A stretch of 64,000 nt of DNA from Massariosphaeria phaeospora. Taxonomy: Eukaryota > Ascomycota > Dothideomycetes > Pleosporales. The DNA is taken from assembly GCA_011032825.1 (NCBI GenBank), contig JAADJZ010000024.1:186001-250000 (forward strand), given 5' to 3'. Positions 37,622 through 44,267 of this stretch are shown in pieces. Below the pieces are notes generated by a model. That model saw nothing but the letters and a program-made list of their open reading frames with translations. It searched no databases and was not told where the DNA came from. Position 1 is the stretch's first letter, and every line of letters starts with the position of its first letter. The position numbers were made by a program, and so were the translations under genes.

Positions 37622-37623
37622 TA

Positions 37624-37889
37624 ACCTCCCTCCCTACGGGTAGAACATCCCACCGCGTAGAACCATGAAAACTCTTAAGCAACACCACTCTTCAACCCAC
37701 CGTCCTATAAAGCTCAAACAAGCACAGTGATATACCTCAGTAAAAGTACAATCTGTTTCTAAGATTGAACAGCAAAATTACAGCGGTTTTGCGCATACTT
37801 ACTGACATACTCTCGCCACTGCCGGAAGCCGCGACAACGATGCACCCCTGTTCACTTGTCAGAGCCCACGATGATCGCCACTTCGGAGG
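37624..37889 (+). repeat. Left inverted repeat of the 6.6-kb NLR unit
   Basis: Starts directly after TA (37622-37623) with ACCTCCCTCCCT, then TAGAACATCCCACCGCG, AGAACCA, and further inside ACGATGCACCCCTG and TCGCC.CTTCGGAG. The same blocks occur in the same order and at the same distances, within 1-2 bp, in reverse complement at 44001-44265. Homology stops abruptly at both outer ends. Identity is high in the outer 50 and inner 60 bp and weak between. This behaves like a terminal inverted repeat with a TA target-site duplication, as Tc1/mariner/pogo elements have. Confidence 0.75.
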
Positions 37890-38240
37890 CTCCAGAGTAC
37901 GACTCACTGTGTCAAAGTGTGGCTTGCAAAGTGCGAAGACCTGCAGCGACCGAGAACATCTGCTCCGGATTTATCCACGGAGACGTGCAGGCCTCTCCAC
38001 TTGAGCAAGGATTCTCCGCACGCTGAGAAAGCGCGTACTTTACTGGTACACTAAGCGGCCTGCATTGTACACCTGAGCTATGCCTAAGATGTCCTAGCTG
38101 TGGCGCCTGGTTCTTGAAGCTTCTATGCACGCGCGCTGCGCCTTCTTGCTATTCTTAGAAGTCAAGAATGGGCAAGGCGAAGGTGACGCCCTCGTCGGCT
38201 TCTTGCTCAAGCCCACCCTCCTCCCTCCACATACGCCGAC

Positions 38241-39867
38241 ATGGACCTAGCCAGCCGAGCGCTAGTGCAGAACTTGCCTGCAGGCGTGCCTGATACGTAT
38301 GCTGCTCGATCAGAACACAGCAATGTCCCTATCTCTACACTCATCCATCGCCGCAACGGACGACGCTCGCGCGAGGAGCAGGCTCAGCGCCAGCAGTACC
38401 TCAGTCGAGAGGAGGAGAAAGCTCTGATACAATTCTTGCTGCTAATGTCTAACCTTGGTCCTTGGCCACCTAGTGCGAATCAAGTTCATACGCTTCCTAG
38501 CTTGTAGTATAGCTCGTCAGCAGTCTACGAAGACGCAACCGACCAAGCCCCTAGGCAAGAATTGGCTGAAAGCCTTCGCGGAGCGTCACTCAGAGCTACA
38601 AGCGAGAAAAGTCAAGTCGATAGATTAGAAACGTCACGAGAACAATGTGTATAGCAAGATAGTCGAGTGGTTCGACGTAATCGGACAAGTGCTGCAGGAC
38701 CTAGCTGTCTTGCCAGAGAACGTGTACAACATGGACGAGACCGGCGTCATGCTAAGCATGCTTGGCTCAGTCAAGGTCCTAGAAAGTAAAGATGACCGGC
38801 GGAACTATAGAAGTGGGGGCGTAAAGCGGACGATGGTTACCGCGGTCGAATGCGTGAGTGCAGATGGTAGGGCGCTGCTGCCACTTATTATATAGCCCAC
38901 TTCGACTCATCGCAGCAACTGGACTACCTACAAGACTCCAAGATGGCATTATGCGCACTCTAAGAACGGCTACAATATCTCTAAGATTAGCTTAGAGTAG
39001 CTTACGCGTGTATTTGATTTTTAAACTAAAGCACAAGCTAACGGAAAGCTACGTGTGCTTATCTGCGATAGCTTTAAAAGTTATAAAACACTCAAAATCC
39101 TAGAGTTTTGTCTTACTAACAACATTATCCTGTGTCGTCTGCTCTCTTACACATTCTACAAGTTACAGCCTTGCAACGTCAGACCTTTCGCACTCTTAAA
39201 GACAGCATACTGTGATTAGGTCGAACGACTTAACTAGAGAGGCATAGATATAGTCGGCAAAGAGCACTTCACTTACCTGTACAGTCCTGCCAAGGACAGC
39301 GCGTTGACTAAAAGAAATATTAGAGCCGAGTAGGCTGCGACCGGCCTGTATCCTTTCAATCCGGACAGAGTACTAAAAGATATCCCGAAACCTCTAGCTA
39401 AAGTTGTTAATCTAGGAATTGCTATTGCGAACACAGGTACGCATAATGCAATACCTCAAAAACCTGACACGCTAGTGACACCGGTAACAGCGGAAGCGCT
39501 TACATCGTTGTATGATATAATCAAGCAAGATACCAACGTGCCTAACGAGACAAGGAGTTGTATACAGAAACTCGCTAATGCTGTTCAGATTTCGTTCGCC
39601 GAGCGAGCCCTCTTAAAGGACCGCAACCGATTTCTTTTCAAAATCAACAACGAAGCTAAGGCTCGTAGGTCGACCAGGTCCATCGTGCTAGGAAAGGCGA
39701 AGGTCATGAGTTTTGAGGAGGCGAAGGTGAGGCGGGCGGCAAAGGACAAGGCTGTAGCACAGAAGGGACAGCGTGGTCGCAAGCGCAAGGAACCGGCGTC
39801 AGAAGCTCCACCGCTATCGAGTAAAGTAGTGCGAACTGGCGAAGTGATAGCATCAGACAAAGTCTAG
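38241..39867 (+). pseudogene. Pogo/Fot1-type DDE transposase, decayed by RIP-like mutation
   Basis: Residue blocks of a pogo-superfamily (CENP-B-like) transposase can be read: MDLASRALVQNLPAGVP.., LSREEEKALIQFLLLMSNLG, a frameshift near 38465-38478, GKNWLKAFAERHSELQARKV, ENVYNMDETGVMLSMLGSVK (first catalytic Asp in MDE), RVLICDSFKSYKTLKILEFC (second Asp), TGLYPFNPDRVLKDIPKP, and a basic C-terminus. Seven in-frame stops (first at 38626-38628) sit where the family has Trp or Gln, so each fits TGG-to-TAG or CAG/CAA-to-TAG/TAA. Several residue changes nearby also fit C-to-T/G-to-A. This is the signature of repeat-induced point mutation, a defence of ascomycetes against repeated DNA. The last 131 codons (39475-39867) remain open. 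Not functional. Confidence 0.85.
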
Positions 39868-40264
39868 CGACCTCATAGAGAATCCCGGTTGCGAGGATGT
39901 ACTAGAACTTCACATGTTCAGACATAAGTCTACATAGCTCAGATCTGCTTTGTTGAATAAGTATGCCAGAAATCTTCTCGACATGCAAGACATGTCTTTG
40001 GAACTTTGCGATTGAACGAAGTACTCTGCAGCTCTTGATATTTCTAAGATAAGTTTACTATTTGTATAGATTTTCGTTAAGTCGCAACGATTATGCTTAA
40101 GTGTGTCCCTGGACCCGTCCCCGAAGCATAGTCTTTAAAGCGCCTAACCGCCTAAGGGATGTTGAAGCGATGAATGAAGCAAGATTGCTAAAAAATGCTT
40201 GAAATAGGAATGTTTTGAAAAAAAGAGGTTGAATTTAATCTTGATGCGAAGCTATATAGCATAA
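39868..40264. other. Spacer between transposase relic and NLR gene
   Basis: AT-rich, about 400 bp. No clear right-hand terminal repeat of a separate Fot1-type element could be matched to the sequence left of 38241. Contains the CGCCTAA..GCCTAAGG motif at 40141-40157 and the 3' flank of the NLR. Confidence 0.4.
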
Positions 40265-43200
40265 CTAGCCTGCCGGTTCCTGCCGATTAGGGTGAGTCTC
40301 TGCAAGCGTACTATCTCGCACCTTAACTACATGCTCTAGCAGCCTCACAGCGTCCTCAATCTGTCCATTCGCCTGGTAGAAAACACTAAGCTGATGCTGC
40401 GACGCTAGCCGATCAGGATGAGTCTCTGCGAGTGTATTGTCTTGCACCTTGACCACATGCTCTAGCAGCCTCACAGCGTCCTTGATCTGTCCATTCGCCC
40501 AGTAGGAAACACCAAGCTGATGCTGCGACGCTAGCCGATCAGGATGAGTCTCTGCGAGCGTATTGTCTCGCACCTTGACCACATGCTCTAGCAGCCTCAC
40601 AGCGTCCTCGATCTGTCCATTCGCCCAGTAGGAAACACCAAGCTGATGCTGCGACGCTAGCCGAGAAGGATGAGTCTCTGCGAGTGTATTGTCTTGCACC
40701 TTGACCACATGCTCTAGCAGCCTCACAGCGTCCTCGATCTGTCCATTCGCCCAGTAGGAAACACCAAGCTGATGCTGCGACGCTAGCCGAGAAGGGTGAG
40801 TCTCTGCGAGTGTATTGTCTCGCACCTTGACCACATGCTCTAGCAGCCTCACAGCGTCCTCGATCTGTCCATTCGCCTTGTAGAAAACACTAAGCTGATG
40901 CTGCGACGCTAGCCGATCAGGATGAGTCTCTGCGAGTGTATTGTCTCGCACCTTGACCACATGCTCTAGCAGCCTCACAGCGTCCTCGATCTGTCTATTC
41001 GCCCAGTAGCAAACACTAAGCGCATGCTGCGACGCTAGCCGATCAGGGTGAGTCTCTGCGAGTGTATTGTCTTGCACCTTGACCACATGCTCTAGCAGCC
41101 TCATAGCGTCCTCGATCTGTCTATTCGCCTGGTAGGAAACACCAAGCGCATGCTGCGACGCTAGCCGAGAAGGATGAGTCTCTGCGAGTGTATTGTCTCG
41201 CACCTTGACTACATGCTCTAGCAGCCTCATAGCGTCCTCGATCTGTCCATTCGCCTGGTAGCAAACACCAAGATGATGCTGCGCTACCAGTCGATCTGGA
41301 TCATCTTCATCCAGCACTTCTCTGCACCGCCAGCACTTCTCTAGCCATCTCACTGCTTCTGGGACTCTACCGTCAAAATTTAGGCATCGTCCCATCCAAA
41401 AACTCAGCTTGGCTCTGCTTTCAACATTAACAGATGTTTTTGTGTTAAGTAGTCGCAGTGCGTGCGGCATATATGCTCTCCATACGGCCTGATTGCCAAA
41501 ATCGTCGATCGGGAAGACCTCGGCAACATGCGCCATAGCTTGTTGGGTCACACCTGCAGCACTGCTATACTTGTCTACCCAGACTCTGGTAGCTAGGTGC
41601 ACAAGTCGATGCAAGTCGTACCATTCTTCTCCTCTATCGACTTTACTAGTGTTGTCATCTTCCCGCCTCGACACAAAAGAGTACCCGCAGAGCGTGCCAA
41701 TAGCTTCTTCTATCCGCTCTTTCGACTGCACCTTCGGAAGCAGCGACTGCGGTATTGCCTTCCACTCGATGCACGACATGAATGCTAGCAGATCTGATGC
41801 CACCACGTCGCGCTCTCGAAGCTGACTGAACGACACTACCCACGTCGAAGCCACTGCGTTCGCCGAGCCCTTGTAGCGTGTTTGGTCGCGGAATTCTTTG
41901 CTCATCAGACTAACGGTGTCTTGCTCTGTGTGTCTCAGCAGCCGCAGATACTTTGTGATAGTTGTTCTGTTCATGTTCAGGTACGCGGCAGCCTGGGCGA
42001 TAGCCAAAGGGAGGCACGCCAACTCGTCTAATAGCTCTTCTACCTTTCTGCTGTCCTCGGCGAGGTCTTTTTTTACCAAAGACTTCTCCAAGAAGTTCTT
42101 GGCATCTGGTTTGCTCATGGACCCTAGTTCTAGAACGTCGCCTCGTGTCAACGACACGGCTAGCTCTTGCACCCTTGTGGTGAACACGGTCATGCCCTTC
42201 TCGCTCTTCGGTAGGTAGTCGATGATTCCTGCAGCATGCTCGGTGCCATACAAGATATCGTGATCATCTGCATTATCGAGCACAAGTAGCCACGGTCCTG
42301 CCTGATTCGCACTTAGATGCTCTTTCACCAGCTCTTTTGCGTCATCTTCGCCTGTCTCCGCCTGACTAATGTGCAAAGCAGCTGCAACGGCTACACAGGC
42401 TTGCTTATAGCTCTCCATGCTGAGTGCAGGCATCCAGAAGATCGAGACGGCTGACATGGTCTCTCTAACTGTATATGCAAACCGCAAGGCTAGCTGTGTC
42501 TTTCCAGCCCCACCTAGTCCCACAATCGACATCTCTTGGCAGCCTGTACCCTCCAGCAGCGTCTGATTGAGTATCCCGAGCTCTTCTCTCCTTCCGACGA
42601 AGTATTGGTTCTTGGGGAACGGTATGTAGTAGGAGGGTTTGTGGGCGGCTACAGGGCAGCGCAAATGGATCAGACACACATAAAGCGAGCTATATGGCTG
42701 CCTTTGTACGTACCAGGTGTATAGGTGGTAAGACACCCTCCAAGACTCCCCACTGACGCCTGTGGCTGGGATGATTCCTGCGAGTCTTCCGCGATCGCTT
42801 TTCGTAGCCTTTTGAAAGCATTGATCTCACCTTCGCCATAGTTGAGGAACGTGAAGACGCCAAAGATACCCAGCAACGAGTACGCCCTGTCTTCTTCACG
42901 TGTAGTCTGACGCTCGTTCGACCAAGACAGGCGCTCCTCCACGCTGAATGCGTCCAACGGGGCTCCTGCAAGGGCAGGGCAGGGGATGTTTGTGATCTCG
43001 TGGATGAGTTGTTTCAGGTTGTATCGGTCGCCTAGATACGTCCTGTCTCGAGAATAGAAGCTTACAAGGCGTGGGGCAAGCAGTTCTTGGAGCGTCCAAC
43101 CTCGAGTAAACCACCGGCTTCGCCGAAACCCCCCTTCCCAAGCGGGCATGCCGGGTACACGATCAGTCGCTGGCTCGGCGCTGAGCACATCTGTCAGAAG

Positions 43201-43524
43201 AACATAGCATCCAGTCGCCTCCTGGTACCAGCGAAACATGGAGTTGATCGCATGCTGAAGCTCGACGGGATCTGCTTTGTTGATGCAACACGTATCCACC
43301 CAGAAGTACCGCAGGCCGTCCCGCTGAGCCTGTTGTGCGCAGAAGCGGATCTTGTCGAACCCAGCCTTGTCCCGTCCAAGACTTTTTTTGAACTCGTCGA
43401 AGGTGACCTCCTGACCAGGCAGCCAGGTGTGCGAGAGTATAGCGTAGGCGGGCACGTTGCTGGCGCCCATCAAGTCCTCTGTGAGTGTGATTGTGCCGTC
43501 ATGTTGTATCTCAAGCAGTCGCAT
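40265..43524 (-). CDS. HET-NB-ARC-TPR NLR (fungal STAND immune receptor-type protein)
   Basis: Two exons: 43524..42714 and 42648..40265 (GTACGT donor, ccctgtag acceptor), 1064 residues, intact. N-terminal HET domain (about 1-250): AYAILSHTWLPGQEVTFDEF, RYFWVDTCCINKADPVELQH, WFTRGWTLQELLAPRLVSFY. NB-ARC: VGRREEL, Walker A GLGGAGKT (314-321), Walker B region WLLVLDNADD, sensor-like VFTTR, GLPL-like ACLPLAIAQAAAYL. C-terminus: eight tandem 42-residue TPR-like units (724-1059) with core AxRLLEHVVKVRDNTLAETH. HET domains trigger cell death in heterokaryon incompatibility; NB-ARC is the ATP/ADP switch; repeats sense a ligand and aid oligomerisation. Ligand unknown. It lies inside a 265-bp inverted-repeat pair with a dead transposase. 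The last unit ends NRQEPAG stop, so the repeat number may have been cut short. Confidence 0.93.
40283..41290 (-). repeat. Eight 126-bp coding repeats (42-aa TPR-like units)
   Basis: Perfectly phased 126-bp direct repeats in the NLR C-terminus, each LASQHQLGVSYWANGQIEDA followed by VRLLEHVVKVRDNTLAETHP and SR or DR. Differences concentrate at unit positions 6 (H/A/Q), 8 (G/S), 10 (C/S/F), 12 (Q/W/K), 15 (G/R), 31 (R/Q) and 41 (S/D/N). The rest is nearly invariant, even in DNA. High identity implies recent amplification or gene conversion. Confidence 0.95.
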
Positions 43525-44000
43525 TTCGCGATGGAGGAGCTTCGGTCCTCGGTCGCATCAGGCCATGGAAGCGCGACAGCCTGTTAGGCTGTTGGATTGA
43601 TCGTTTGCGCTCTCGCGTACCGCCGTTAAAGTTGATGGGTGCGGGTATGTGCATGTACATACATTGAGAAGAGAGTAGACTGCCTCGCTTTGCTAAGCAT
43701 CAGGGTAGGCTATGATAGGTGTTGACCTGTGGGTGCGCCAGGAAGATGACTGTTGGGCAGGACATGACGTGACTAGAGATAGCCAGCATGCGGCACAGCT
43801 CAAGCCGTCTTGGCATAGCAGGGTGTATAATGCAGACCGCTAAGCGTGCAAAACCCCGCTATGTAAGCGCGTTAAGTCCTCTCGTCAAAACACAAGATCC
43901 TGCCTGTGAATGCGGACAAACTTGGAGTGTATGTAAATAGAGGCTGCACATCATCAAACTTCATCTAGTTCTATTTCATGTGATATGGTATCGTTAAAAC
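43525..44000. promoter_or_regulatory. Promoter region of the NLR gene
   Basis: About 475 bp between the NLR ATG (minus) and the inner edge of the right inverted repeat. No clear TATA box. The leader likely also extends into the inverted repeat. No other gene. Confidence 0.4.
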
Positions 44001-44265
44001 GCTCCGAAGGGGCGATGATCGTGCTTGTTAATGGTAGAGCAGGGGTGCATCGTCGTTGCAGCTTCTGAAGCTGAAGACGAAATGCTAGAAGCAAAGCCAG
44101 TATTTCTGTATTTTCTGTATCGAAGATCTACGGTAGGCGAAGACACGTCTGGAGTGTAGTTCCAGGCTAGCTAAGCTTTTATTAGATAGCGGGGTCGAGT
44201 TGATGGTGCTTGAACGATCTTCGTGGTTCTGCGCGGTGGGATGTTCTAACCCCAGGGAGGGAGGT
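44001..44265 (-). repeat. Right inverted repeat of the 6.6-kb NLR unit
   Basis: Reverse complement starts ACCTCCCTCCCT at 44265, just inside TA (44266-44267), and carries the same ordered blocks as 37624-37889: TAGAACATCCCACCGCG, AGAACCA, ACGATGCACCCCTG (ending at 44040, 225 bp from the edge versus 226 on the left) and CTTCGGAG. Outside the TA no similarity remains. It lies upstream of the NLR start, so it could also act as promoter. Confidence 0.75.
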
Positions 44266-44267
44266 TA

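Follow-up and report, generated by a model that had tools for sequence, protein, structure and literature searches.

The stretch of DNA analysed here, referred to as the window, comprises positions 186001-250000 of contig C17 (64,000 nucleotides) in the 42-Mb assembly of Massariosphaeria phaeospora (Pleosporales). Plain positions refer to the window, and other loci are given in contig coordinates. The window contains a 6.6-kb unit that is bounded by terminal inverted repeats (TIRs) and carries a relic of a pogo-type transposase and one cargo gene, which encodes a nucleotide-binding oligomerization domain (NOD)-like receptor (NLR). The features of the unit, and the further bounded units described below, are listed in Table 1.

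Table 1. Features of the window unit and of seven further bounded units found by an end pattern
Feature	Position	Strand	Remarks
TA, left copy of presumed target-site duplication	37622..37623	.	From sequence; homology with the C33 unit starts here or one base outside
Left TIR	37624..38106	+	Strong in outer ~48 bases; decayed blocks to ~480
Pogo-type transposase relic (Tc5-type helix-turn-helix (HTH) + DDE_1)	38240..39867	+	Several stop codons; DNA 87-94% identical in the C33 element
NLR, second part: NB-ARC + TPR repeats up to stop	40265..42649	-	tblastn of P0002; upper boundary approximate
TPR region, 126-base period	40282..41337	-	Six other 300-nt copies 82-94% identical to reference copy, one more 63%
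NLR, first part: HET domain	42682..43524	-	Short intron precedes NB-ARC part; boundary approximate
Right TIR	43785..44265	-	Arm comparison, blastn
TA, right copy of presumed target-site duplication	44266..44267	.	From sequence
Bounded unit	C5:81792-97868		16 kb; other-lineage pogo transposase (C5:96062) near one end
Bounded unit	C9:464317-476626		Inner pair 469917-475172; NOD by Pfam
Bounded unit	C17:270981-285240		Further end at 276931; NOD by Pfam
Bounded unit	C20:473435-478592		NOD by Pfam
Bounded unit	C49:1116383-1124397		NOD by Pfam
Bounded unit	C49:1398354-1405515		TPR gene with DUF7779; NTPase-like part by eye only
Bounded unit	C48:521143-530990		NOD by Pfam

Inspection of the open reading frames (ORFs) of the cargo gene showed a HET domain in 42670-43524, and NB-ARC and TPR repeats in 40265-42736, both on the minus strand. 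The gene is thus a fungal NLR with HET as effector domain, NB-ARC and TPR repeats, and the original prediction of an intact receptor gene of this make-up inside the unit was borne out. The TPR units are closely alike, as is also the case for the internal repeats of allorecognition NLRs, which are highly conserved. The deposited protein (P0002, 943 aa) carries the database name 'kinesin light chain 1' despite its HET-NB-ARC-TPR make-up, and its model is without part of the TPR repeats that are present in the open frame.

When five pieces of the transposase relic were scanned, one matched HTH_Tnp_Tc5 (E 8e-4) and one DDE_1 (E 4e-3), both below the curated cut-offs. Where the relic was aligned to a relative's transposase, five TAG and one TAA stop codons were found. 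An open 747-aa relative at C9 matched DDE_1 with E 1e-32 and gave no HTH match, and the homologue P0158 matched HTH_Tnp_Tc5 above the cut-off. The weak HTH and DDE_1 remnants together with the stop codons agree with the dead pogo transposase that had been claimed from the letters. The window unit therefore has the features of the pogo-type class, namely TA at the ends, TIRs, and DDE_1 with a Tc5/CENP-B-type HTH.

The outer arms of the unit (37622-37669 and 44220-44267, 48 nt) were 90% complementary with TA outermost on both sides, and the inner arms (37825-37853 and 44037-44065, 29 nt) were 86% complementary. A third block (38048-38106 and 43785-43847) was paired weakly by blastn (E 8e-4), suggesting that the TIR may be about 480 bases long and much decayed. 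The comparison of the left and right ends gave a score of 44.5, which was 20.5 standard deviations (SD) over 100 shuffles, a match well beyond chance. In 50-base steps, the end-versus-end identity was 0.88 in the first step and 0.34-0.66 thereafter, with an interior control of ≤0.50. The TIR is clear at its tip and mostly decayed behind it. Facing repeats of about 265 bp had been proposed here; self-alignment confirmed the inverted arms, but they are probably longer, perhaps about 480 bases, and more decayed than assumed. The proposal that similarity stops at TA on both sides held, since TA is outermost on both arms and the match with a second copy on contig C33 begins one base outside the TA. 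TA was also outermost at both ends of the C33, C48:701793 and C20 units, and in all four units including that of the window the duplication is presumed from sequence.

When the left 311 bases of the window unit were searched against the genome, five matched pieces were returned, all of which lay within two inward-facing pairs, that of the window and C33:97812-105580. Both ends of the C33 unit matched the window ends, with TA on both sides. Its left part aligned with the window element over about 2.1 kb, at 94% identity in the outer 0.7 kb and 87% further in, and its cargo was a 985-aa NACHT(NPHP3_N)-ankyrin NLR unrelated to the window NLR. The search for the repeat ends with other cargo between them, which had been suggested as a check, was thus positive. 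In 100-base steps, the identity between the two units was 0.73-0.98 to 39.72 kb, then 0.64 and 0.57, and ≤0.44 past 39.92 kb; this drop at about 39.8-39.9 kb indicated that the shared part stops with the transposase. When the four ends were compared pairwise in all six combinations, the score was highest between the two left ends (129) and lowest between the two right ends (36), which suggests a different history for the right halves. As the window and C33 units share the left half but not the cargo, the halves may behave as exchangeable modules.

Old promoter or repeat copies that came to face each other by chance had also been considered as the origin of the two repeats, and the 13-base end motif TAACCTCCCTCCC does occur 24 times in the genome. 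Fifteen of these matches belong to one unrelated repeat, four are the ends of the two units and five lie in other sequence. Past its first 13 bases, the end sequence matched only the two inward pairs, and the 300 bases left of 37622, the flank that was searched alone, are single-copy in the genome. A chance arrangement was therefore rejected, and we consider it next to impossible. The unrelated repeat is of high identity and is preceded by AATCT[CT]ATACAAATC; it was found on C1, C9, C12, C23, C33, C34, C45, C50 and C51.

As another candidate, a composite transposon was tried by looking for internal ends in the C17, C33 and C48:701793 units (the last minus its rightmost 1.2 kb). No internal end exceeded about 2 SD above 15 shuffles, so the window unit does not look composite. 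From the claim of a composite transposon moving an immune-type gene, the TIR- and TA-bounded pogo-type unit with an NLR was retained and the composite structure was dropped.

A genome search with a related transposase yielded nine loci at 51-100% identity (C1:1335028, C48:709152, C9:473314, C2:255337, the window locus on C17, C33, C48:522932, C39:18444 and C31), with all others listed at ≤36%. A tenth locus of this clade, C1:2379063, was outside the list of that search and was added from DNA similarity and tblastn. For comparison, 160 other pogo loci were taken as the de-duplicated union of the candidates outside the clade that were listed by the genome family searches, in which only the best candidates were scored (150 of 823 and 128 of 972). 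NOD loci were defined as NB-ARC and NPHP3_N matches by Pfam genome-wide, and 74 rows were merged to 70 loci. A NOD domain was found by Pfam within 5 kb at 8 of the 10 clade loci (a count that takes in the window locus, the starting finding; 7 of 9 without C1:2379063) and at 4 of the 160 other listed loci, which were judged by Pfam only and not by reading, with 1.7% expected at random. At a ninth clade locus, C48:709152, a patatin-NTPase-TPR gene was found by reading, whose AAA_16 match was weak and below the cut-off. Because the NLR-like genes of the C48:701793 and C49:1398354 units were missed by the genome Pfam searches, the NOD counts are lower bounds. Near the C2 transposase (L048 131-640), a 169-aa ORF resembled by eye the DNA-binding part of another transposon, with no Pfam match.

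When the upstream regions of the C9, C2 and C1:2379063 loci were aligned, similarity began at TAA[CG]GT, and TAACGTCCCTCCC stood at the corresponding place in C48. The pattern TAACSTCCNTCCC gave 48 matches, of which at least 15 were an unrelated repeat, compared with 4 in a reversed control, and paired C48:701793 with C48:710993 (9.2 kb), ends that match each other with z 11.2. A 35-base pattern, TAASGTSSNTCCNNNNGTNNSGRGACRCNNNNTGT, was built from five ends (three from C9 and a single one from each of C2 and C1:2380349) and searched with up to two mismatches. It gave 22 matches in the genome, including its five source ends, and none in the reversed control. Seventeen matches fell in inward groups at the seven loci in Table 1, one of which (C9) is a source of the pattern; the other five were C1:2380349, C2:257239, C2:933721, C9:832020 and C23:510453. 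A TIR search in the C1:1335028 stretch found none, and that in the C48 stretch found one weak pair that was not the real end, the right end being found later by pattern. The C48-type end pattern had 6 matches, with no further inward pair.

The last of the five matches outside inward groups lies in C23:504926-510487, where a pogo transposase of another clade is followed 2 kb downstream by an NPHP3_N domain, both lying within 6 kb together with the pogo-type end at 510453. This might possibly be the same cargo habit in another lineage.

Together with the window, C33 and C48:701793 units, ten bounded loci of 5-16 kb were obtained, seven with a NOD by Pfam, two with an NLR-like gene by reading and one unread. 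They cover 96 kb and hold 8 of the 70 NOD loci, compared with 0.16 expected (binomial P 6e-12); for the seven pattern-found loci, there were 6 NOD loci compared with 0.12 expected (P 3e-9). Since these association probabilities, like the 1.7% expectation for the clade loci, assume NLRs evenly spread, the window unit was the starting point and C9 supplied part of the pattern, they indicate strong enrichment rather than exact odds. The architecture differed in each unit that was read, with HET-NB-ARC-TPR, NACHT-ankyrin, patatin-NTPase-TPR and HET-NACHT-WD40 genes. The cleanest case of TIR, NLR and TIR is the C20 unit (L087; 5.16 kb), in which inverted repeats of about 540 bases, 87% identical over the outermost 98 nt, enclose a HET-NACHT gene with WD40 repeats. 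No pogo match was among those listed for C20, where the Pfam scan covered the two NLR frames.

These arrangements bear on whether the NLR is merely a neighbour, with short pogo elements that prefer sites near NLRs or in NLR-rich regions, or beside which NLRs were duplicated. Such an origin would fit the inner end pair at C9, which holds the transposase only and leaves the NLR outside, and the second pogo that lies within the C48:701793 unit close to its right end. It is hard to reconcile with NLRs inside paired ends at C17, C33, C48 (two), C20 and C49 (two), with C20, where the NLR was the only gene recognised between the TIRs, and with the rarity of nearby NLRs in the other listed pogo lineages, and we regard it as quite improbable.

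Comparison of the transposase halves of the window and C33 units revealed 192 transitions and 35 transversions, a pattern resembling repeat-induced point mutation (RIP). By context, there were 48 C/T differences before A and 22 G/A differences after T. The TpA/ApT ratio was 1.39 and 1.42 in the transposase halves, compared with 0.73 in the window, 0.84 and 0.87 in the NLRs and 0.84 in the open C9 transposase; the (CpA+TpG)/(ApC+GpT) ratio was 1.02 and 1.07 in the halves, compared with 1.30, 1.26 and 1.29. The simplest reading of these sequence ratios is that the duplicated half was hit by RIP and the unique NLR was spared. It is plausible that the different receptors in different copies are what keeps the NLRs open. 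In a Sordariales study of 2025, passages of the paper state that RIP should conflict with receptor defence via NLR duplication, and report only weak correlations (PMC12258605).

Taken together, we interpret the 6.6-kb unit as a pogo-type DNA transposon of the Tc1/mariner superfamily with one NLR as cargo between its TIRs, and as one of a set in this genome that mostly hold NLRs, with a probability of about 0.86. The interpretation draws on the anatomy, on a second copy that carries different cargo, on the set of units and on the RIP-like signature. Several observations weigh against it. The analysis covers one genome. At the C31 clade locus, no NOD was found on its contig, and at C48:522932 and C39:18444 the NLR lies upstream of the transposase. 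The C5 unit showed no NB-ARC or NPHP3_N by Pfam, its interior being unread, and the NLRs of the C9, C17:270981, C49:1116383 and C48:521143 units are known by the domain place in the genome search only. The loci C1:1335028, C2 and C1:2379063 yielded no right end. Three or four ends lie close together at C9 and C17:270981-285240, so that nesting is possible and the bounds are ambiguous, and the right end of the C49:1116383 unit starts with CA, not TA. Moreover, G/A differences after A (28) were not exceeded by those after T, and with such uneven context classes the RIP context is suggestive and not clean.

In the proposed mechanism, the pogo transposase would bind the TIRs, excise the whole unit and insert it at TA. 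The left half (TIR and transposase) and the right half (NLR and right TIR) would serve as exchangeable modules, and right halves might be exchanged via recombination or by pairing of a left end with the right end of another unit. The two neighbouring right ends at C9 fit such end-swapping, and nesting fits them too. RIP would kill the transposase in the multicopy left half while the sequence-unique NLR escapes, leaving a dead transposase beside an open NLR. Where a unit lacks a functional transposase, it would depend on the enzyme of a relative in trans, for which the 747-aa open copy at C9 might be a source. A benefit to the host or the element could come via allorecognition or defence.

As a refinement of the transposon reading, the NLR could belong to the selfish core of the element, acting as a killer/rescue or post-fusion killing module that penalises loss or promotes transfer between strains, and not be occasional cargo. 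The repeated association with allorecognition-type NLRs, with a HET domain in three of the cases that were read (window, C1:1335028 and C20), speaks for it; the four kinds of architecture among the read units are unlike a fixed core gene, and on balance we think it unlikely, though worth keeping in view.

Relatives of the C9 transposase were found, as proteins without genomic context, in Curvularia clavata (70%), Pyrenophora tritici-repentis (72%), Bipolaris sorokiniana (71%), Botrytis cinerea (69%), Alternaria gaisen (62%) and others, and one relative in Rutstroemia is named tan1 in the database. Pattern searches of viral and prokaryote contig collections for relatives of the transposase yielded 26 and 29 stretches, none of which was confirmed; a PDB sequence search with the C9 transposase gave no match. 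For residues 1-690 of the window NLR, the identity was 87-88% with the best matches from Alternaria, Pyrenophora and Macroventuria and 83-85% with those from Bipolaris; for a flanking cell-polarity protein, it was 67% with Alternaria and 64% with Bipolaris and Pyrenophora. With this single flanking gene as yardstick, the excess in identity only hints that the window NLR may have moved horizontally. Tentatively, and at a little under even odds, a small pogo class with NLRs as regular cargo is widespread in Pezizomycotina and builds, swaps and horizontally spreads allorecognition or immune receptors, with the different NLR in each copy evading the RIP that destroys the shared transposase half.

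NLR repertoires of fungi are highly variable. This class of jumping genes may spread and reshuffle the self/non-self recognition genes of the fungus, and small TIR elements, each carrying another NLR, would offer a second means of dispersal besides the giant Starship elements. The 35-base end pattern finds such units without annotation, which would allow sets of strains to be surveyed for empty sites and exchanged cargo.

The units resemble pogo and Fot1-Tan1-like elements in the DDE_1 transposase with Tc5-type HTH, the TIRs and the TA at both ends. The usual fungal members are about 2 kb long and carry a transposase only, whereas the units here are 5-16 kb, mostly with an NLR, and have TIRs of about 480-540 bases where measured (C17, C33 and C20). 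The order HET-NACHT-WD40 of the C20 cargo is that of the Podospora HET-E/D/R (HNWD) NLRs, which to our knowledge are not known as cargo of TIR elements. In the literature searched, which did not cover preprints (bioRxiv), there was no report of a pogo or Tc1/mariner element with NLR cargo.

In carrying an NLR, the window element is like a miniature Starship, yet it is not one. According to passages of the sources, Starships are fungal mobile elements with NLR and patatin genes as accessory cargo (PMC12506042, PMC9594970, PMC9815663), use a DUF3435 tyrosine recombinase (PMC12506042, PMC9594970) and are far larger (PMC12134995). The window unit is 6.6 kb with one cargo gene, not giant with many, and a DUF3435 captain was not among the matches listed for the in-element frames scanned (three ORFs, five relic pieces of 26 stop-to-stop frames, three antisense ORFs and P0002). 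Passages of PMC12506042 describe ToxTA (formerly ToxhAT) of Pleosporales as a 14-kb TIR element with TA duplications and host gene cargo, likely Tc1/mariner according to its authors; it differs in that its cargo is the ToxA effector gene, it is non-autonomous and its TIRs are 74 bp (PMC12506042). ToxTA, in the same fungal order, is the nearest structural precedent for the window element.

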